Source: Haloarcula limicola (GTDB taxonomy: Archaea > Halobacteriota > Halobacteria > Halobacteriales > Haloarculaceae). From it: a stretch of DNA of 64,000 nucleotides. This document shows, piece by piece, positions 5,047 through 25,574 of the stretch; position 1 is the stretch's first letter; each line of letters starts with the position of its first letter. Location: NCBI RefSeq assembly GCF_010119205.1, contig NZ_WRXM01000001.1, positions 310,001 through 374,000 on the forward strand, written 5' to 3'. The notes under the pieces are model-generated. The model searched no databases and was not told the DNA's origin. It saw only the letters and a program-made list of their open reading frames with translations. Made by a program: the position numbers and the translations under genes.

Positions 5047-5838
5047 ATGGCCCGGTCACGCCGCTCGGTCCTCGCGTCGCTCGCCGCCGCGGCCGGACTC
5101 TCCGGTTGCTCCGGCGTCGTCGAACGACTCCCGGACGACGGCTCCGCGCTCGAAGAGCGAGTTCGAACGGCGGCGGAGGCGGCCGGCGATCAGGTCGACG
5201 GGAGAGACCCGCCGACCGAACCGTTCGACGAGGCGACGAGGGAACGGGCGTCCGAGACCGGACGGCAGATTCGCGATTCGGTCGTCGTCCTGGAGACCGA
5301 CCGCCGGCGCGGGACGGGATGGGCGGTCGGCGACGGACAGATCGTCACGAACGCTCACGTCGTACTGGGCGCGCCGTCGATGTCCGTCGAGACGTTCGAC
5401 GAGACGACCGGCACCGCGGAGCGAGTCGGCTACTACGAGGACATGCGGCCCGACCTCGCGCTCCTCGAAACCGACGTGTCGGTCCCGACGCTCTCGCTCG
5501 GCGACTCGGCCGACCTCGAGTACGGCGACCCGCTGATCACGGTCGGCCACCCGGGGCGACTCGGGAAGTGGCTCATCACGCTCGGGCGCTTCTATCGGCG
5601 ACCCCGCGGCATCGACTGGCTGCTCTCGACGGTGCCGGTCCAGCAGGGCAACAGCGGCGGCCCGCTCGTCACCCTCGACGGGGACGTCGTCGGCGTCGTC
5701 TCGGGGAGCACGACCGGCGGCGACCGACCGGACTTCAGCAAGAACGACACGGCCTTCACCGAACTCCCGGAGACCGAGGGCGAGACGACGGCGGTCCCGG
5801 AGGGGACCCTCGAAGAGTCGCTCAGCGAGTGGCGATAG
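5047..5838 (+). CDS. Tat-exported lipoprotein, trypsin/HtrA-like serine protease
   Basis: 263 residues. The N-terminus has a twin-arginine stretch (RSRRSVL) and a lipobox LSGC with Cys21, so it is probably exported folded and lipid-anchored outside the cell. A chymotrypsin-fold protease domain follows: His in TNAHVV (about residue 104), Asp in RPDLALLE (about 137) and Ser in QQGNSGGPLV (about 202), a complete catalytic triad. No PDZ domain is present, unlike classical HtrA. A CTATACG box lies about 25 bases before the ATG. Its last 17 bases overlap the end of menD on the other strand. Confidence 0.88.
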   Translation: MARSRRSVLASLAAAAGLSGCSGVVERLPDDGSALEERVRTAAEAAGDQVDGRDPPTEPFDEATRERASETGRQIRDSVVVLETDRRRGTGWAVGDGQIVTNAHVVLGAPSMSVETFDETTGTAERVGYYEDMRPDLALLETDVSVPTLSLGDSADLEYGDPLITVGHPGRLGKWLITLGRFYRRPRGIDWLLSTVPVQQGNSGGPLVTLDGDVVGVVSGSTTGGDRPDFSKNDTAFTELPETEGETTAVPEGTLEESLSEWR

Positions 5839-7606
5839 CCCGGCGGCTGCGCTCGGTCAGCTCCTCGCGCCGGTCGTGGCTCTCCCCGGAATCGAACTGG
5901 ATCTCGATGACTTGCGTGCCCGCGCTATCGACCGACTTCTCGAACGCTTCTTCGAACGCCGCTCGGTCCCCGACGCGGCGGAACTCCAGTCCGTAGAGAT
6001 CGCCCGTCGGGCCGAAGTCCAGCCCGTGTGGCGTCCGGAACTGCGACTCGAAGGTGTCGTGCTCCGCGATAGGTAAGATACCGAAGATGCCGCCGCCGTC
6101 GTTGTTCACGAGGACGATGGTCGCGTCGACGCCACAGCGACCCAGCGCGAGCAGCCCGTTCATGTCGTGGTAGTACGCGAGGTCGCCGGTCACCAGCACT
6201 AGCGGGTCGTCCGTCGCGCTGCCAGCGCCGAGCGCCGTCGACGTGATGCCGTCGATCCCGCTGGCTCCGCGGTTGCCCAGCACGGTGAGATTCGCGGTTC
6301 GAGGGCGGCCGAAGCGGTCCAGGTCGCGGACGGGCATGCTGTTGGAGACGAACAGCGTCGTCGGGTCGGGCGCGAGCCGGGCCGCGTCGGCCAGCACGCC
6401 GCCCTCCCAGTAGCGTTCGCCGGGCGCGAGCGCGTCCTCGACCGCGTTCCAGTGAGCGCGCTCCGCGGCGGCGAACCGCCTCCGCCACGACGCCTCGCCG
6501 CGGGCCGTCACGCGTTCCGCGAGAGCGCTCGCGGTGGCGTTCGGGTCCGCGACCAGCAGGTCCGAGGCGGTGAACTCCGCTTCGGTCCACCCGCCCGCCG
6601 GGTCGACGACGAACTGGCGGCAGTCCGAGTCCCGGAGGGAGTGCCGGAGCGGCTTGGACGTGGGCGACGCGCCGAAGCGCAACACTACGTCGGGGTCGGC
6701 CCACGACGCGACGGCGTCGGACCCGAGGTAGGCGTCGTAGCCGCCACAGACCGGCGCGTCGAGGCGGTCGACGTGCGGGCCGAACCGGAGGTCAGACAGC
6801 GGGTCCGCGAGGACCGGGAAGCCGGTGGCTGCCGCGAGCTTTTCGAGCGCTTCGGGCGCGAGGCCGTCGTCGGCCGGACCGGCGACGAGGAGCCCCCGGT
6901 CGGCGGCCTCGACGGCGCGAGCGACGCGGACGACCTCGTCGGCCGGCAGTTCGGGTCGCCCCTGCTCGGTCCGGACGAACGGGCCGTCCCGACCCTCCGC
7001 GGCCGATCGGTCGCCGTCGGCCCAGTCGTCGGGTACGCCCTCCGGGTCGTCGTCGGGAACCGGCGTCGGTTCGAGCGGTTTGCGAAAGCGGCAGTTGAGG
7101 TGGACCGGGCCGGGAGTACTGCCGGTCGCCGCGGCGAGCGACCGAGCGGCGGTGGTTCGCAGCATCCTGACCTTTCGGGGTTCGGCCTCGGGCTCGGGCA
7201 TGTCCCGGTACCAGCGGACCGCGTCGCCGTACAGCTTCTCCTGGTCGACGGTCTGGTTCGCGCCGCTATCCGTGAGTTCCGGCGGCCGATCGGCCGTGAG
7301 CAAGAGCATCGGCACGCCGGACTGATCGGCTTCGATCACCGCCGGGTGGAAGTTCGCGGCGGCGGTTCCGGAGGTACAGACCAGCGGCGTCGGCTTTCCC
7401 GTCCGGCGCGCGCGACCGAGCGCGAAGAACGCCGCGGAGCGCTCGTCGAGGTGCGAGAACGTCCGTATCTCGGGGTGTTCGGCGAAGGCGACCGTCAGCG
7501 GCGTCGAGCGGCTGCCCGGCGAGAGACAGACCGCGTCGACGCCGCCGGCGGCGAGTTCCTCCGCGAGCGTCTCGGCCCACAGCGTGTTGACGTTCGGATA
7601 CCCCAT
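5822..7606 (-). CDS. menD: SEPHCHC synthase (ThDP-dependent)
   Basis: 594 residues, the full family length. MenD adds a succinic semialdehyde unit from 2-oxoglutarate to isochorismate. Seen: the N-terminal SPGSRSTPL and HLDERSAAFFALG blocks, CTSGTAAANFHPAV, and a C-terminal thiamine-diphosphate site with GDLAYYHDMNGLL followed by VNNDGGGIFGILP. It starts three bases after the stop of menF on the same strand, so the two form an operon that carries chorismate to SEPHCHC. The 3' end overlaps the protease gene tail to tail. Confidence 0.96.
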   Translation of the reverse strand: MGYPNVNTLWAETLAEELAAGGVDAVCLSPGSRSTPLTVAFAEHPEIRTFSHLDERSAAFFALGRARRTGKPTPLVCTSGTAAANFHPAVIEADQSGVPMLLLTADRPPELTDSGANQTVDQEKLYGDAVRWYRDMPEPEAEPRKVRMLRTTAARSLAAATGSTPGPVHLNCRFRKPLEPTPVPDDDPEGVPDDWADGDRSAAEGRDGPFVRTEQGRPELPADEVVRVARAVEAADRGLLVAGPADDGLAPEALEKLAAATGFPVLADPLSDLRFGPHVDRLDAPVCGGYDAYLGSDAVASWADPDVVLRFGASPTSKPLRHSLRDSDCRQFVVDPAGGWTEAEFTASDLLVADPNATASALAERVTARGEASWRRRFAAAERAHWNAVEDALAPGERYWEGGVLADAARLAPDPTTLFVSNSMPVRDLDRFGRPRTANLTVLGNRGASGIDGITSTALGAGSATDDPLVLVTGDLAYYHDMNGLLALGRCGVDATIVLVNNDGGGIFGILPIAEHDTFESQFRTPHGLDFGPTGDLYGLEFRRVGDRAAFEEAFEKSVDSAGTQVIEIQFDSGESHDRREELTERSRRAIATR

Positions 7607-7609
7607 CTG

Positions 7610-8947
7610 TCACTCCAGTTCGTCCAGCATCGGACGGTACTTGAGCTGCACTTCGTCCCACTCCCTGTCGGGGTCGCTGTCGGCGACGATGCCGGCCCCG
7701 GCGAACAGCGTGGCCGTTCGGTCGCGGGCGACCGCCGAGCGGATTCCGACGGCGAACGTCCCGTTGCCGGCGGCGTCGACCCAGCCGACGGGCGCGGCGT
7801 ACCACCCGCGGTCGAAGGCCTCCGTCTCGCGGATGGTCCGCAGGGCCTCGTCCGGCGGTAAGCCGCCGACCGCCGGCGTCGGGTGGAGGGCTTCGACCAG
7901 CGAGAGGACGTGTTCGTCTTCTTCGAGCTCGGCGGTGATCGACGTTCTGAGGTGCTGGACCGTCGCCAGTCGACGGACGGTCCGCTCGCCGATGCGCACC
8001 GAGGAGGCGAACGGCTCCAGCTGGTCGCGGATGGCGTCGGCGACGAGCTGGTGCTCGTGGACGTCCTTCTCGCTGTCGAGCAGCTCCGCGGCCAGCCACT
8101 CGTCTTCGGCGGGGGTGTCACCGCGGCCGGTCGACCCGGCCAGCGCCTCGGTCCTGACAGTTCGGCCCCGGAGCGAGACGAGTCGCTCCGGCGTCGCGCC
8201 GAAGAACGTCCCGTCGCCGGGCGGCGCGAACATGAACCGGTAGCAGTCGGGGTACGTCTCGGCCAGCCGGTCGAGGACGGCCGGGACCGATAGCGCTCCG
8301 CGCAGGCTCACGCGCAGCGCCTGCGCGAGGACGACCTTCTGGAGGCGGCCGCTGTCGACTCGCTCCAGCGCGTTGCCTACCTGCTCGCGCCAGACGGCCT
8401 GCGAGGGGGTTCGTTCGCGGGCGTCCACGCCCGGCGGGTCGGCCCGGGGCGACGCGGCGCCGTCGGCCAGCCGGTCGTGCCACGTCTCGAGCAGTCGGTC
8501 GGCGTCGGCCTCGGCCGACGAGCCGGTCCCCGTCGTCGTGAGCCACGTCTCGCCGTCGCGCTCGGTCACTTGCACTTCGGGGAGGAAGAACGCGGCTCCG
8601 GGAAAGCCGTCCCACGGGGAGTCGTCGCCGTCGCGGTCGCCCTCGTGGAAGGCGAAGCCGCCGAACAGGCGGGGGCGCGCGGCGCTCGGGAGCTCCGCCG
8701 AGACCTCACAGCGGTCGAAGAGCCCCTCGGCGGCCGTCTGCACGTCGGCGAAGCGCGAGGACCCGCCGGCGGTCACGAGGGCGGCGGCACCGCTCGCGGC
8801 GACCGTCTCCGAACCGGTGGCCCACGCGAACGTCGGACGCGTCTCGGCGTCGAGAACAGCTCGGGTCGCCCCGCGCTCGACTCGACGACCGCGCGTGACG
8901 ACCGCCGTCTCGCCCACCGTCCGCTCGTCACCACGCAGTGGTTCCAT
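7610..8947 (-). CDS. menF: isochorismate synthase
   Basis: About 445 residues; a chorismate-binding enzyme that begins menaquinone synthesis. The C-terminal catalytic domain shows KVVLAQALRV, the FGATPERLVSLRGRTVRTEALAGST block, HPTPAVGG and WYAAPVGWVDAAGNGTFAV, all typical of the isochorismate/salicylate/anthranilate synthase family. The start is given as ATG 8945-8947; the GTG immediately before it (8948-8950) is also possible. menD follows after three bases. The gap upstream to 9161 is AT-rich and holds the divergent promoters. Confidence 0.94.
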   Translation of the reverse strand: MEPLRGDERTVGETAVVTRGRRVERGATRAVLDAETRPTFAWATGSETVAASGAAALVTAGGSSRFADVQTAAEGLFDRCEVSAELPSAARPRLFGGFAFHEGDRDGDDSPWDGFPGAAFFLPEVQVTERDGETWLTTTGTGSSAEADADRLLETWHDRLADGAASPRADPPGVDARERTPSQAVWREQVGNALERVDSGRLQKVVLAQALRVSLRGALSVPAVLDRLAETYPDCYRFMFAPPGDGTFFGATPERLVSLRGRTVRTEALAGSTGRGDTPAEDEWLAAELLDSEKDVHEHQLVADAIRDQLEPFASSVRIGERTVRRLATVQHLRTSITAELEEDEHVLSLVEALHPTPAVGGLPPDEALRTIRETEAFDRGWYAAPVGWVDAAGNGTFAVGIRSAVARDRTATLFAGAGIVADSDPDREWDEVQLKYRPMLDELE

Positions 8948-20148: not shown

Positions 20149-21555
20149 ATGAGTCGTGATAACAGTAGACGGACGTTCCTCAAGCGCACCGGCGCGCTCG
20201 GCACGCTGGGCATCGCCGGCCTCGCCGGGTGTTCGACCGAACCGAGCGACGGCGGAGACGGCGGCGACGGCGGCGACGGCGGTGACGGCGGCGACGGCGG
20301 TGACGGCGGAACCGGCGACGGCGGAAGCACCGGAACCGGCACCGAGGGCGGCGACGGCGGCGCCAGTGACTCGCCCGACGTGTTGATGATCGTCGGCTAT
20401 CCACAGAGCGGCGTCCAGTTGTTCAAGGACTACTACTCCGACTACGGCGACGACACCGTCGACATCCTGGTGACCGACGGGTTACAGGACGGCAGCCTCC
20501 CGGGCGACGTCGGCAACGACATGTCGAACGTCCAGGGGACCGCCCCGTCGGCGTCGGGGCCAGGCGTCGAGACGTTCACGAACCTGTTCCTAGAGGAGTT
20601 CGACTACGAGCAGGCGGGCGTGTTCACCTCGCAGGCCTACGACGCCAGCGCGGTCCAGATCCTGGCGAACCTCATGGCCGGCGCGAACGACGGGGCGGCG
20701 ATCCGCGACCACATGCGCGTCGTCGCCAACCCCGGCGGGACGACCTACACCCCGTCGGAATTGCCCGACGCCGCGGCGGCGGCAGCCGCCGGCGAGAACA
20801 TCGAGTACGCGGGGGCCTCCAGCAACGTCAACTTCGACGAAGCGGGCGACATCACCTCCGCGCAGTACCAGGTGTTCGGCTTCACGCAATCGGGCGTCGA
20901 GACGCGGGACACCATCGACTTCGGCGGATCGGGCGATATCCCGCAGCCGGAACCGTCTGCCAGCGGGAGCGGGAGCGACCGCACTGTCCGGCTCGGCGTC
21001 CTACAGCCGGAGACCGGCGACCTCGGGCCGCTCGGCCAGCCGATTCGGGACGCCGCCCTGCTCCCGGCCATCCAGCTCCGGGACGCCATCGACCAGTCGA
21101 TCGAGACGCAGGTCGGTGACACGCAATCGCAGGCGCAGGCGGCCGTCAACGCGGCCAACTCGCTGGTCAGCGCCGGGTATCCCATGATCACCGGTGCCGC
21201 GGGCTCCGAGGCGACGATTCAGGTCGCCCGGAACGTCCTCGTCGACAACCAGGTCGTCGGCTGCTCGCCGGCCTCTACCTCGCCCGCCATCACGGACCTC
21301 GAAGACGACGACTTCGTCTTCCGGACGCCGCCGAGCGACGCGTTACAGGGACAGGTCCTGGCACAGGTCGCCACCGAGGAACTGGGCGCGTCCTCGGCCT
21401 CGACGCTGTATCTCAACAACAGCTACGGGCAGGCGCTCCAGGAGAGCTTCGCCACCGCCTTCGAGGAACAGGGCGGCTCTATCGTCCAGCAGGTCGGCTT
21501 CGAGTCCCAGCAGTCCTCCTACACCTCGCAGTTGAACAGCGCGCTGAACCAGTAG
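20149..21555 (+). CDS. livK: branched-chain amino acid ABC transporter binding lipoprotein, circularly permuted
   Basis: 468 residues. A Tat signal (SRRTFLKR) and lipobox (LAGC, Cys27) lead to a Gly/Asp repeat linker (residues about 34-75). What follows is out of the usual order. Residues about 78-265 (PDVLMIVGYPQSGVQLF, FTSQAYDASAVQILANL, MRVVANPGGTTYTPSEL) match the C-terminal half of Leu/Ile/Val-type binding proteins. After a second Gly/Ser/Pro linker, residues about 283-468 (TVRLGVLQPETGDLGPLGQP, SPASTSPAITDLEDDDFVFRT-like, NNSYGQALQESF) match the N-terminal half, and the gene stops just where a normal one would enter its C-half. It is convergent with the livHMGF permease/ATPase genes. 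The function is inferred from family and position; the substrate is unknown. Confidence 0.85.
   Translation: MSRDNSRRTFLKRTGALGTLGIAGLAGCSTEPSDGGDGGDGGDGGDGGDGGDGGTGDGGSTGTGTEGGDGGASDSPDVLMIVGYPQSGVQLFKDYYSDYGDDTVDILVTDGLQDGSLPGDVGNDMSNVQGTAPSASGPGVETFTNLFLEEFDYEQAGVFTSQAYDASAVQILANLMAGANDGAAIRDHMRVVANPGGTTYTPSELPDAAAAAAAGENIEYAGASSNVNFDEAGDITSAQYQVFGFTQSGVETRDTIDFGGSGDIPQPEPSASGSGSDRTVRLGVLQPETGDLGPLGQPIRDAALLPAIQLRDAIDQSIETQVGDTQSQAQAAVNAANSLVSAGYPMITGAAGSEATIQVARNVLVDNQVVGCSPASTSPAITDLEDDDFVFRTPPSDALQGQVLAQVATEELGASSASTLYLNNSYGQALQESFATAFEEQGGSIVQQVGFESQQSSYTSQLNSALNQ
20251..20310 (+). repeat. tandem 9-base repeat coding Gly-Gly-Asp linker
   Basis: About seven units of GGCGGNGAC encode the Gly-Gly-Asp linker just after the lipid-anchor cysteine of the livK product. 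Such short tandem repeats can change in number by slippage, in multiples of three codons, without breaking the frame. Confidence 0.85.
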
Positions 21556-21588: not shown

Positions 21589-22344
21589 TCAGCCGCCGAG
21601 GAACTCCCGTCTGACCTGCTGGTCGGCCAGCAGCGTCTCGCCGGCGTCCTGATAGCGGTTCTGCCCCTGGACGAGGACGTAACCGCGGTCACAGCGACGC
21701 AGCGCCTCCTTCGCGTTCTGCTCGACCATCAGAATCGCGGTGCCGTCGTCGTTGATGCCGTCGATGCGGTCGAACATCTCCGCGACGAGGTCGGGCGCGA
21801 GCCCCGCCGACGGTTCGTCGAGCAGGAGCAAGTCGGGGTCCAACATCAGCGCGCGACCCATCGCCAACATCTGTCGCTGGCCGCCCGAGAGCGTCCCGGC
21901 CTTCTGGGTCGAGCGCTCGCCGAGGATCGGGAACCGGTCGTACACCGCCCGAATCCGGTCCTCGGGCACCTCGTCTAAGATGTACGCGCCCATCTCTAAG
22001 TTCTCGCGGACGCTCAGCGAGGCGAAGACGTTGTCGGTCTGGGGGACGTACCCGATGCCCTCGTGGATTATCTGGTCCGGCCGGCGCGCGCTGATGTCGG
22101 TGCCGTCGAACAGGATCTCGCCGCCCATGTGCGTCGTCAGGCCGAAGACGGACTTCATGACGGTGGACTTGCCCGCGCCGTTGGGGCCGACGACGACGAC
22201 GTACTCGCCGTCGCCCACGTCCATGTCGACGCCCTCCAGCACCTGTAAGTCGCCGTAGCCGGCGTCCAGGTCGCGGACCGAGAGCAGGCTCTCGGTAGTC
22301 TCCGGAAGCGTCGCGTCCTCGGCTCGGGTGGCTCGCTGGCTCAT
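21589..22344 (-). CDS. livF: branched-chain amino acid ABC transporter ATPase
   Basis: 251 residues. A complete ABC ATPase: Walker A GPNGAGKST, Q-loop YVPQTDNVFASLSV, signature LSGGQRQML, Walker B LLLLDEPSAGLAP and switch-region His replaced by VEQNAKEAL, as is usual in LivF. It powers import together with LivG. Its ATG overlaps the livG stop as ATGA (22341-22344). It is the last gene of livHMGF and ends 34 bases from the stop of the convergent livK. Confidence 0.94.
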   Translation of the reverse strand: MSQRATRAEDATLPETTESLLSVRDLDAGYGDLQVLEGVDMDVGDGEYVVVVGPNGAGKSTVMKSVFGLTTHMGGEILFDGTDISARRPDQIIHEGIGYVPQTDNVFASLSVRENLEMGAYILDEVPEDRIRAVYDRFPILGERSTQKAGTLSGGQRQMLAMGRALMLDPDLLLLDEPSAGLAPDLVAEMFDRIDGINDDGTAILMVEQNAKEALRRCDRGYVLVQGQNRYQDAGETLLADQQVRREFLGG

Positions 22345-23183
22345 ACGTCGCCCCCCAGGTACGCCTCCAGCACGCGTTCGTCGCGCTGGACGGTCTCGGC
22401 GTCGCCCTCCGCGAGGACGCGTCCCTGATGCATGACGATGATGTGCTCGCAGTGCTCCATGATGACGTCCATGTCGTGCTCGACGAGCAGGAACGTCAGC
22501 CCCTCTCGCCGGAGTTCGTCGATGCGGTCCAGCAGCTTCTCTTCGAGCGTCGGGTTGACGCCGGCGAGCGGTTCGTCCAGTAAGACCATCTCGGGGTCGG
22601 TCATCAGGACGCGGGCCATCTCCAGCAGTTTCCGCTGACCGCCCGAGAGGTTGCCGGCGTTCTCGTGTGCGAGGTGGTCGATCTCGAAGAAGGAGAGCGT
22701 CTCCCACGCCTCCTCGACCACGTCGGCCTCGTCGCGCTCCACTTCCTCGCGGAGCCCCGGGAGCACCGCCCGGATCGCCGACTCGCCGACCTGTCCCGGC
22801 GGCGCGAGCATGACGTTCTCCAGCACCGTCATCTCGGAGAGCTCTCGGGCGATCTGGAAGGTGCGGACGAGGCCGCGCTCGGCCAGCGCGTAGGGCGGGA
22901 GCCCGGTGACATCTCGCCCGTCGAACCGGACGGTTCCGGCCGTCGGGTCGTGGATGCCCGTGATGCAGTTAAACGTCGTGGACTTGCCGGCCCCGTTCGG
23001 CCCGATGAGGCCGGTAAACGAGCCGGGAGCGACCCGGAACGACGCGCCGTCGACGGCGGTGACGCCGCCGAACTCCTTGCGGAGCCCCTCGACCTCCAGC
23101 AGCGGCGAGTCGATGGCCTCGCTGGTCGTCGGCACGTCCTCGCTCGGACCGCGTTCCCTCCCGACCGCCTCGGCGTCACTCAT
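22341..23183 (-). CDS. livG: branched-chain amino acid ABC transporter ATPase
   Basis: 280 residues. Walker A GPNGAGKSTTFNCITG, the LivG-specific long helical insert after GLVRTFQIARELSEMTVLENV, signature LSGGQRKLLEMAR, Walker B MVLLDEPLAGVNP and His switch LVEHDMDVIMEHC are all present. About 30 extra residues precede the domain. The start is put at ATG 23181-23183, inside the last codons of livM (8-base overlap); a GTG three codons further up is possible. Confidence 0.94.
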   Translation of the reverse strand: MSDAEAVGRERGPSEDVPTTSEAIDSPLLEVEGLRKEFGGVTAVDGASFRVAPGSFTGLIGPNGAGKSTTFNCITGIHDPTAGTVRFDGRDVTGLPPYALAERGLVRTFQIARELSEMTVLENVMLAPPGQVGESAIRAVLPGLREEVERDEADVVEEAWETLSFFEIDHLAHENAGNLSGGQRKLLEMARVLMTDPEMVLLDEPLAGVNPTLEEKLLDRIDELRREGLTFLLVEHDMDVIMEHCEHIIVMHQGRVLAEGDAETVQRDERVLEAYLGGDV

Positions 23184-24462
23184 CGGCGTCACCCCCGCTG
23201 TCGGCGGGCCGATGTCGCGTCAGGTCGACGCTGGTCGCCGGTTCGCTCCGGTTGCCCAGGATCCCCTGTGGGTAGTTCTGGATGATGTATACGAGGACGA
23301 CGCCGATGAGGACGAAGCGGAGCGTGCTGACGTTGCTGATCGTGTATGCCAGAAGCGGCGTCGGGTCGAGCGACCCGAGCGCGGCGACGGCCTCGACGAC
23401 GTTGCCCGGCGCGTTCGTTCCGAACGTCGGGAAGTACTCGCCGAGGCGAGCGGGCAGGTAGAACAGGAGCGCCGAGAACGTCGCCGCGCCGAGGACGCTC
23501 CCCGTGTTCGAGCCGGACCCGCCGATGATGAGCGCGGCGAAGACGTAGAACGTGATGGCCGGGCGGAACTGCGCGGGGCTGATGTAGCCCGCGCCGCCGC
23601 GGAACAGCGCGCCGGCCAGCCCCATCAGCGCGCAACCGATCATGAACGCCTTGATCTTGAACAGGCGGGTGTCCTTTCCGAGCGACTGGGTCACCGTCTC
23701 GTCCTCGCGGATGGCCTTCAAGACGCGACCGAAGGGCGATTTGGCGAGTCGGTTCAGCACCCAGTACGCGCCGACGACCAGCGCGAGCAGCGCGAGGCCG
23801 TAGGCGATGTTGACGACGTTCGGTCCGGAGACGCCGAGGCTTTCGGCGATAGCGACGAGCGGCCCTCCGAGGCCGTTGACGACGTCGGCGACCACGTCGT
23901 CCGGTGCGGGAAAGGAGATGCCAGTCGCGCCGCCGGTGCCGAACGTCTTGCCGAGCACCTGCACCTCGGAGACGCCCTGCCAGTTGACGAACAGGCGGAT
24001 GATCTCCGAGAGCGCGACGGTGACGATGGCGAGGTAGTCCGCCCGCAGTCGGAGCGCGGGGAGGGCGGCGAGCGCGCCGACCAGCGCGGCCATCGCCATC
24101 CCGCCGAGCAGGCCGAACCACAGCGGGAGTCCGAATCCGGGGACGCCGCCGGCTCCGGGATTCGCGGGCGCGGTCAGGATGGCGGTCGTGTACGCGCCGA
24201 CGGCCATGAAGCCGGCGACGCCGATGTTGAACAGGCCGGTGTAGCCCCACTGGAGGTTCAGCGCCAGCGTGAGCAGCGCGTAGGCCCCGATTAACACGGT
24301 GACGCTGCCGACGAACCCGGCCGCGAGGTTCGCGGACTGGGCCGCGCCGACGGAGAAGGCCAGTATCGAGAGCGCCAGCCAGATGACGAGGACGAACAGG
24401 GCGACGAGCGCGGCGTCGGGGAGGGCGAGCAGTCTCTCACGAACGTCCTCGACGGCGCTCAT
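23176..24462 (-). CDS. livM: branched-chain amino acid ABC transporter permease
   Basis: 428 residues, about nine or ten membrane helices. LivM features: LNLQWGYTGLFNIGVAGFMAVGAY near residue 65, the cytoplasmic EAA-like loop SPFGRVLKAIREDETVTQSLGKDT that contacts the ATPases, and GLAGALFRGGAGYISPAQFRPAITFYV. The C-terminus is a charged tail. The start ATG overlaps the livH stop as ATGA (24459-24462) and the end overlaps livG, so expression is coupled along the operon. Confidence 0.93.
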   Translation of the reverse strand: MSAVEDVRERLLALPDAALVALFVLVIWLALSILAFSVGAAQSANLAAGFVGSVTVLIGAYALLTLALNLQWGYTGLFNIGVAGFMAVGAYTTAILTAPANPGAGGVPGFGLPLWFGLLGGMAMAALVGALAALPALRLRADYLAIVTVALSEIIRLFVNWQGVSEVQVLGKTFGTGGATGISFPAPDDVVADVVNGLGGPLVAIAESLGVSGPNVVNIAYGLALLALVVGAYWVLNRLAKSPFGRVLKAIREDETVTQSLGKDTRLFKIKAFMIGCALMGLAGALFRGGAGYISPAQFRPAITFYVFAALIIGGSGSNTGSVLGAATFSALLFYLPARLGEYFPTFGTNAPGNVVEAVAALGSLDPTPLLAYTISNVSTLRFVLIGVVLVYIIQNYPQGILGNRSEPATSVDLTRHRPADSGGDADE

Positions 24463-25574
24463 GCCGTGCTCACCCCCCCGAAGATGCCCGACGGTCGCAG
24501 GAGCAACACGACGATGAGGACGGCGAAGGCCGCGGCGCGGGTCAGCCCCGACGGGAGCCAGATGAGCGCGAGGCTGTCGACGAGGCCGATGAGGACGCCG
24601 CCGGCCATCGCGCCGTAGATGGAACCGATGCCGCCGACGATGACCGCCGCGAAGATGAGCAGGAGGAGGATCCAGCCGAAGTTGAAGGCGATGGTGCCCC
24701 GTTCCAGCACGAGGAGGTAGCCGCTGACGCCCGCCAGCGCGCCGCCGAGGACCCACGTCAGGCGGACGACTCGCTCGGTGGGGATCCCGGTGACGCGCGC
24801 TAAGTCCTCGTTGTCGGCCATCGCGCGCATCGCCTTCCCGAGTTTCGTCCGCTGGAGCAGGAGGTGAACGGCGAGCATGAGCACCACCGAGACGACCAGG
24901 AGGGCGATCTCGTTGTCCGTGACGGTGACGCCAGCGCCCAACTGGATTTGCGCGCCGACCGTGGCGACGCCGCTGGTCTGCGTGCTGAAGACGAAGGCGA
25001 TGAGATAGCGAAGCGCGAGCGCCACGCCGATCGAGGCGATGAGCAGCGAGATGTTGTCCGCGCCGCGCATGGGTCGGTAGACGAGGCGGTCGACGAGTAA
25101 CACGACGCCGACGGTGCCGACGGCGGCGGCGATCAGGCCGAGGAGGACGAAGGCGTACGTCGAGGCGGTGCTCAGTTGCCGCCCGCCGTCGAACAGGAAC
25201 AGGTCCGCAATTGGGGCGCTCGTCGCCAGGTTGGCGAGGACGAAGGCGGTGACCCACCCCGCGAACGCGCCGACCGTCACCGTATCGCCGTGGGCGAAGT
25301 TGGCGAAGTCGAGGATGCTGTAGGTCATCGAGAGGCCGATGCCGGCCAGCCCGACGGCCAGTCCGACGAGTAAGCCGTCCAGTACCATCGACGCGAGCGA
25401 CCCCACGGTCAGCGATCCGCCCATGACGCGGAAGCCGAGCGCGTACACCGTCGTCCCGGCGAGTTTCGTCACGAGATCGGCCAGTAGATAGGCGACGGCG
25501 ACGGCGACGACGCCGGTCCCGGGTCGCTCGATGGCGACCCGCCGCCCGTCCGCGACTGTGTCAGCGATTCCCAT
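24459..25574 (-). CDS. livH: branched-chain amino acid ABC transporter permease
   Basis: 371 residues. An N-terminal stretch of about 60 residues precedes the LivH core: LVGLAVGLAGIGLSMTYSILDFANFAHGD, the EAA-like loop LLLQRTKLGKAMRAMADNEDLARVTGI and VIVGGIGSIYGAMAGGVLIGL. It is the first gene of livHMGF. The start is placed at ATG 25572-25574; on this strand a GTTATTTACG box lies about 35 bases upstream. The frame is open much further upstream but the extra residues are not family-like. Confidence 0.92.
   Translation of the reverse strand: MGIADTVADGRRVAIERPGTGVVAVAVAYLLADLVTKLAGTTVYALGFRVMGGSLTVGSLASMVLDGLLVGLAVGLAGIGLSMTYSILDFANFAHGDTVTVGAFAGWVTAFVLANLATSAPIADLFLFDGGRQLSTASTYAFVLLGLIAAAVGTVGVVLLVDRLVYRPMRGADNISLLIASIGVALALRYLIAFVFSTQTSGVATVGAQIQLGAGVTVTDNEIALLVVSVVLMLAVHLLLQRTKLGKAMRAMADNEDLARVTGIPTERVVRLTWVLGGALAGVSGYLLVLERGTIAFNFGWILLLLIFAAVIVGGIGSIYGAMAGGVLIGLVDSLALIWLPSGLTRAAAFAVLIVVLLLRPSGIFGGVSTA

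Follow-up and report, generated by a model that had tools for sequence, protein, structure and literature searches.

The livK gene of the analyzed window, a stretch of 64,000 nucleotides from Haloarcula limicola, encodes what looks like a branched-chain amino acid-binding protein with its two halves in exchanged order. This raises the questions of whether such an order is genuine, whether a protein built in this way could still serve an ABC importer, and how, and how many times, it came about. The initial annotation, made from the sequence alone, had read the product as a signal peptide, a Gly/Asp-rich tether, the C-terminal half, a linker, and the N-terminal half, and this reading was borne out by alignments to Pfam and to PDB entry 3td9: a Tat/lipobox signal and a Gly/Asp tether are followed by the C-half, a 19-residue linker, and the N-half (Table 1). 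The borders needed slight adjustment, as the start of the N-half, previously placed near residues 283 to 285, is a few residues off from its exact position at residue 278. The signal is matched by the TIGR01409 (TAT_signal_seq) model with an E value of 0.0084 and a score of 16.4 bits, slightly under the cutoff of 16.7 bits, and the lipobox, LAGC with Cys28, was recognized in the sequence by eye. Most of the relatives that carry a lipobox have a Gly/Asp-rich tether of variable length at the equivalent place.

TABLE 1 Features of the permuted livK gene and the adjoining transporter genes (positions in the window)
Feature	Coordinates	Strand	Evidence
livK gene	20149..21555	+	single open frame, 468 aa
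Tat lipoprotein signal peptide, residues 1-27 (RRTFLK ... LAG-C28)	20149..20229	+	TIGR01409 and sequence
Lipobox Cys28 and flexible Gly/Asp-rich tether, residues 28-76	20230..20376	+	sequence
C-half, placed first, residues 77-258 (DVLMIVGYP ... TIDF)	20377..20922	+	ANF_receptor, 3td9 C-half profile
New internal linker, residues 259-277, GGSGDIPQPEPSASGSGSD	20923..20979	+	missing from canonical homologs
N-half, placed last, residues 278-468 (RTVRLGVLQPETGD ... SYTSQLNSALNQ)	20980..21552	+	Peripla_BP_6, 3td9, Atu2422
livF, ABC ATPase; convergent with livK, whose cognate transporter it presumably serves	21589..22344	-	open frame, ABC motifs in sequence
livG, ABC ATPase	22341..23192	-	open frame, conserved order
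livM, permease	23176..24462	-	open frame, conserved order
livH, permease	24459..25574	-	open frame, conserved order

The exchange of the halves is evident from profile searches. The protein matches the Peripla_BP_6 family with 88.2 bits (the curated cutoff is 31.7), and this match is split into two stretches, with profile positions 1 to 186 falling on residues 279 to 465, near the end of the chain. The front half, when searched alone, matched only the last third (positions 243 to 352) of the ANF_receptor profile. A canonical relative matches Peripla_BP_6 as one continuous stretch, from position 1 to position 312. Among solved structures, the best sequence matches are to LivK, to leucine-binding proteins, and to the homologous domains of metabotropic glutamate receptors. 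On the chain of Thermotoga LivK (3td9), the N-half aligns to residues 15 to 201 and the C-half to residues 204 to 322 and 324 to 351, so both halves are complete but swapped, with the cut at about residues 201/204 of 3td9 or, in Peripla_BP_6 coordinates, at about 186 to 189 of the 343 positions. The C-half alignment required a profile; as a single sequence, this half found no relative in the PDB. Aligning each half separately, as in one of the checks proposed together with the original reading, gave a reversed match order in both Pfam and 3td9. Because this order is not the co-linear one (N-half, then C-half) of the LivK/LivJ (HAAT) family, the protein is filed here as a permuted variant and not as a standard HAAT member.

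In comparison with canonical LivK and LivJ proteins (Thermotoga TM1135, 3td9, and Escherichia coli LivJ, 1z15), the permuted LivK is homologous in both halves, is encoded in a livHMGF locus, and has the same predicted fold in each half. It differs in the swapped halves, in the tether being on the other lobe, and in the extra linker, which bridges the former C terminus to the former N terminus and is missing from canonical homologs. A motif of this linker, PQPEP..GSGS, is kept across the Haloarcula group. Identity of the C-half to its counterpart in canonical haloarchaeal homologs is 43 to 64%, distant outgroups excluded. The order of the profile matches, the alignment to solved structures, the existence of relatives in both orders, the AlphaFold model, and the conserved locus all support the assignment of this protein as a circularly permuted LivK-type (Peripla_BP_6) substrate-binding protein.

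Modeling of the fold, likewise suggested at the outset, produced a confident AlphaFold2 model from an input that consisted of the window protein and 45 permuted relatives (pLDDT of 89.4, pTM of 0.88), with the linker region among the parts with the lowest pLDDT (block means of 64 and 76). The N-half of the model corresponds to residues 1 to 192 of solved LivK-type proteins: model residues 202 to 392 superpose on this stretch of Atu2422 with a Z score of 13.6, at 2.3 Å over 189 aligned residues (Foldseek, VIA-align). This structural placement covers the N-half, and the C-half is assigned via its sequence profile; the whole permuted chain is not superposable on a canonical chain because the aligners used are sequential. 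Unlike the other listed matches, PDB entry 5er3 from Rhodopirellula baltica aligns over model residues 1 to 365 (235 residues at 4.1 Å), and this chain may have an unusual topology of its own.

Liv-type permeases and ATPases (livFGMH), the gene context of the HAAT family, directly adjoin livK in the window. The block in which livK faces livF, livG, livM, and livH on the opposite strand is found with 35 of the 39 permuted genes and with 39 of the 59 canonical ones, the latter tally including one gene (L153) that was labeled canonical in it and is permuted at a different point (permutant B, see below). Since the same block is common to permuted and canonical genes, the permuted gene fills the standard livK position. 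Other members of the family act as receptors, with mGluR and AmiC among the structural matches, so that the permuted protein might have retained the fold as a sensor or receptor and ceased to be the binding protein of LivFGMH. That reading sits poorly with the 35 loci in which livFGMH adjoins the permuted gene, and also with the N-terminal export signal, which mostly has a lipobox, as in canonical LivK, and with the lack of any fused signaling domain; as judged from these sequence features, a receptor role appears highly improbable.

An order as unusual as this one could also stem from an assembly error, a miscalled frame, or a dead gene, and one relative is in fact broken: in G109:C2 (L124, about positions 5800 to 8600), a permuted livK of group II (see below) is split by a 396-residue open frame resembling an IS-type transposase, with the remainder of the N-half continuing as a 107-residue frame. 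The same full-length permuted order, however, is found in 28 further genomes of the genus, at 74 to 96% identity, and in independently assembled genomes of named species (Haloarcula amylovorans, 97%; Har. japonica; and Har. argentinensis), and it is also carried by the complete chromosome of Halomicroarcula sp. SYNS111. This recurrence in same-genus genomes and in separately sequenced species excludes chance and misassembly. Comparisons of the window gene with three relatives gave overall dN/dS values of 0.043, 0.113, and 0.154 (0.14 to 0.23 for the linker), and the gene has no internal stops. Purifying selection acts on both halves and on the linker. With the identical order in many independent assemblies, including complete chromosomes, dN/dS well below 1, and an uninterrupted frame, the probability of an artefact or a pseudogene is practically nil.

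In the survey of the class Halobacteria, which covered 391 genomes with a threshold E value of 1e-25 or better and with the order counted by hand, a homolog was present in 307 genomes. The canonical order alone was seen in 137 of these, and about 170 have a permuted protein, counting two with a different cut (type B) and one with a disrupted copy. The search for the same order in relatives, another of the checks proposed initially, thus found it recurring both in the genus and in the class. The genome of the window itself encodes five LivK-type paralogs of canonical order (L081 to L085). In a sample of 393 genomes from the phylum, the matches listed outside Halobacteria had either the canonical order or the N-half only, and no permuted form was detected among them by a search that distant forms could escape. 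Wherever both halves are listed for a homolog from elsewhere in the phylum, they stand in the canonical order, which is therefore ancestral.

The number of origins depends on the trees. These included 72 permuted and 59 canonical-order proteins, with L153, one of the 59, relabeled as permutant B; for the livK tree, N-halves and C-halves were aligned separately and then concatenated in the canonical order. The permuted sequences form four groups, whose assignment to genera is based on named records and linker motifs. Group I is the Haloarcula group; group II consists of Halorubrum and its relatives (linker ..ADPVGVD); group III is a large group of Haloferax, Halorussus, Haladaptatus, Natrialba, and others (linker ..ADSxPGG); and the small group IV comprises G035 (L075) and Halobacteriales archaeon YIM A00013 (L211). 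These make up at least three separate groups that are each tied to canonical-order relatives. The livK tree has four label changes in all bootstraps, three of them forced by well-supported branches, and the N-half and C-half trees have four changes each. An independent tree of livF, livG, livM, and livH from the same loci has three.

Uniting all permuted proteins into one clade costs 82 log units in the livK tree (AU test, P = 0.006) and is rejected in the livFGMH tree with P = 2.5e-50, so a single permuted clade is ruled out by both data sets. In pairwise tests on livK, the joining of groups I and II (P = 0.025), I and III (P = 0.037), and II and III (P = 0.030) is rejected with moderate significance; on livFGMH, all three pairs are rejected, with P values from 1.5e-4 to 4e-76. 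Joining group IV to group III (P = 0.32) or to group I (P = 0.18) is rejected in neither case. The linker of group IV is group III-like, but the transporter genes of L211 cluster with those of the Haloarcula group, which might reflect recombination between livK and its operon.

Mixed ancestry of another kind would be expected if the halves had come from different binding proteins and had been fused in swapped order, and the nearest canonical neighbors of group I do differ between the N-half and C-half trees. Against such a chimera, the canonical full-length relatives of one half are also those of the other, with similar levels of identity (64% for the C-half and 58% for the N-half in the case of L131), and both halves of group II point to the same six relatives, which makes this origin very unlikely.

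A permutation that happened a single time is harder to dismiss, as the cuts of all groups lie no more than a few residues apart, in the lobe 2 loop between SYTSxLxxAL and PDxLxVIGYP. The scatter of the permuted proteins over the tree would then result from reversals to the canonical order or from gene conversion, in which canonical paralogs overwrote each half but the permuted layout was kept. Canonical paralogs coexist with permuted genes in many genomes, as do the five in that of the window, and the combination of a III-like linker with a I-like transporter block in group IV hints at mixing. On the other hand, the relatives from outside Halobacteria indicate a canonical ancestor, and the operon tree would have to be read as one gain and about four reversals instead of three gains. 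In all four trees (N-half, C-half, whole protein, and operon), group II is placed with one and the same set of six canonical relatives, so that conversion would need to overwrite both halves right up to the junctions. The linkers of groups I, II, and III differ, despite a weak AD..P.G pattern that II and III have in common. A single origin is therefore improbable, and it is likely that permutation at this loop arose independently at least three times among the livK orthologs of Halobacteria, with one lineage permuted again at a second loop. By a rough estimate, chance alone would be unlikely to place three cuts in one of about twenty loops, which points to a structural or functional preference for this loop.

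The second cut is seen in two proteins from one genus, L153 (positions 6001 to 7185; G402:C1:1362316-1363500) and L190 (G395:C1:3166875-3168059), which are 90% identical to each other. This permutant B begins with the late part of the N-half and continues with the C-half, the linker, and the early part of the N-half. Pfam positions 42 to 312 come first, and the initial 38 residues of the N-half come last; the cut is inside the first lobe, about 38 residues in. Both genes branch from within group III, with full support, and have the same livFGMH locus. The initial annotation had anticipated neither the commonness of the permutation in Halobacteria nor its apparently repeated origin nor this second form.

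Considered jointly, these data are very likely to reflect a permuted LivFGMH binding protein of normal fold that was produced by duplication and trimming, with at least three origins and one re-cutting. In its permuted form, the protein would act as the lipid-anchored substrate-binding protein of the neighboring LivFGMH amino acid importer. With the former termini joined by the 19-residue linker and new ends opened in lobe 2, at the loop between helix and strand, the chain is predicted to fold as a normal two-lobed Venus flytrap, whose cleft would hold an amino acid of the branched-chain or a similar type. As can be expected from what is known of the family, the lobes would close on this ligand and hand it over to LivHM, with LivFG powering the transport. 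Mechanically, the only difference would be that the lipid tether is attached to lobe 2 and not to lobe 1. The permutation is not accounted for by tethering alone, which is unsupported as its general cause, because some permuted proteins (L094b, L095b, L100, and L110) have no lipobox Cys; L100 and L110, which have a signal peptide and no such Cys, are probably not lipid anchored.

As for the genetic route, the initial annotation had proposed duplication followed by loss, that is, an in-frame tandem duplication of livK with subsequent trimming of the first N-half and the last C-half. The same change would have taken place at least three times in Halobacteria, and its product would have been re-cut at another loop in one lineage. 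The position of the linker fits this route, as do tandem pairs of permuted livK genes in G160 and G347, but no N-C-N-C intermediate was seen, and duplication is therefore a step that we infer. Besides permutant B and L138, the fetched loci contained no fused N-C-N-C dimers and no separate half-genes. L138 (about positions 6001 to 7200; G361:C16) was rejected as a half-gene candidate: it is a canonical livK with a single in-frame TAA after GYPDSGI, which makes it either a pseudogene or the product of a sequence error. The tandem pairs (L094 in G160:C2 and L095 in G347:C1) stand in direct tandem upstream of convergent livFGMH genes, and one gene of each pair has neither the lipobox Cys nor the long tether.

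Natural circular permutations are usually regarded as single ancient events whose steps have been lost. DNA methyltransferases with permuted motif order are a family with more than one event of circular permutation; those permutations are at different places and in distant enzyme classes, whereas the LivK cut is in the same loop of orthologous genes within one archaeal class. The closest likeness is offered by TpMglB-2 (Tp0684) of Treponema pallidum, a crystallized permuted glucose-binding protein that was proposed as the founder of Type Ic, or Cluster Bc (PMC4990184). TpMglB-2 is the lipid-anchored binding protein of an ABC importer, and its ligand binding has been demonstrated; the first three strands of its N-lobe have moved to the C terminus, which requires a fourth lobe crossover, and its lineage comprises the sugar-binding MglB proteins of spirochetes and Gram-positive bacteria (PMC4990184). 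Both proteins are natural circular permutations of Type I (Cluster B) binding proteins, that of LivK being known from sequence and a model. The LivK cut is in lobe 2, in another loop, is found in the archaeal LivK/HAAT lineage, and is repeated. Because TpMglB-2 has its cut in the N-lobe and comes from a lineage of sugar-binding proteins, permuted LivK, which would work like it in principle, is not a member of Type Ic. Engineered permuted halves of the Thermotoga ribose-binding protein demonstrated experimentally that the Type I fold tolerates topological rearrangement (PMC9815098); these constructs are single lobes made in the laboratory, whereas permuted LivK is a natural full-length protein. 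The substrate-binding domain of OpuA, considered as a further precedent, was discarded, as the open paper makes no such statement. A literature search that left subscription journals mostly uncovered found nothing relevant on permuted haloarchaeal binding proteins.

The permuted haloarchaeal LivK thus looks like a real, apparently functional, and repeatedly evolved permutation. Several apparently independent events and a second cut make it a rare natural experiment in protein evolution, in which permuted and unpermuted orthologs occupy the same locus in hundreds of sequenced and partly cultivable archaea. Such matched natural pairs allow one to ask why one loop is preferred, what form the intermediates had, and whether moving the tether to the other lobe affects docking to the transporter. 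If the repeated origin is true, the layout of this binding protein would be evolutionarily fluid, with one strongly preferred cut. Co-linear profiles catch about half of a permuted protein, so permuted binding proteins may be missed elsewhere.
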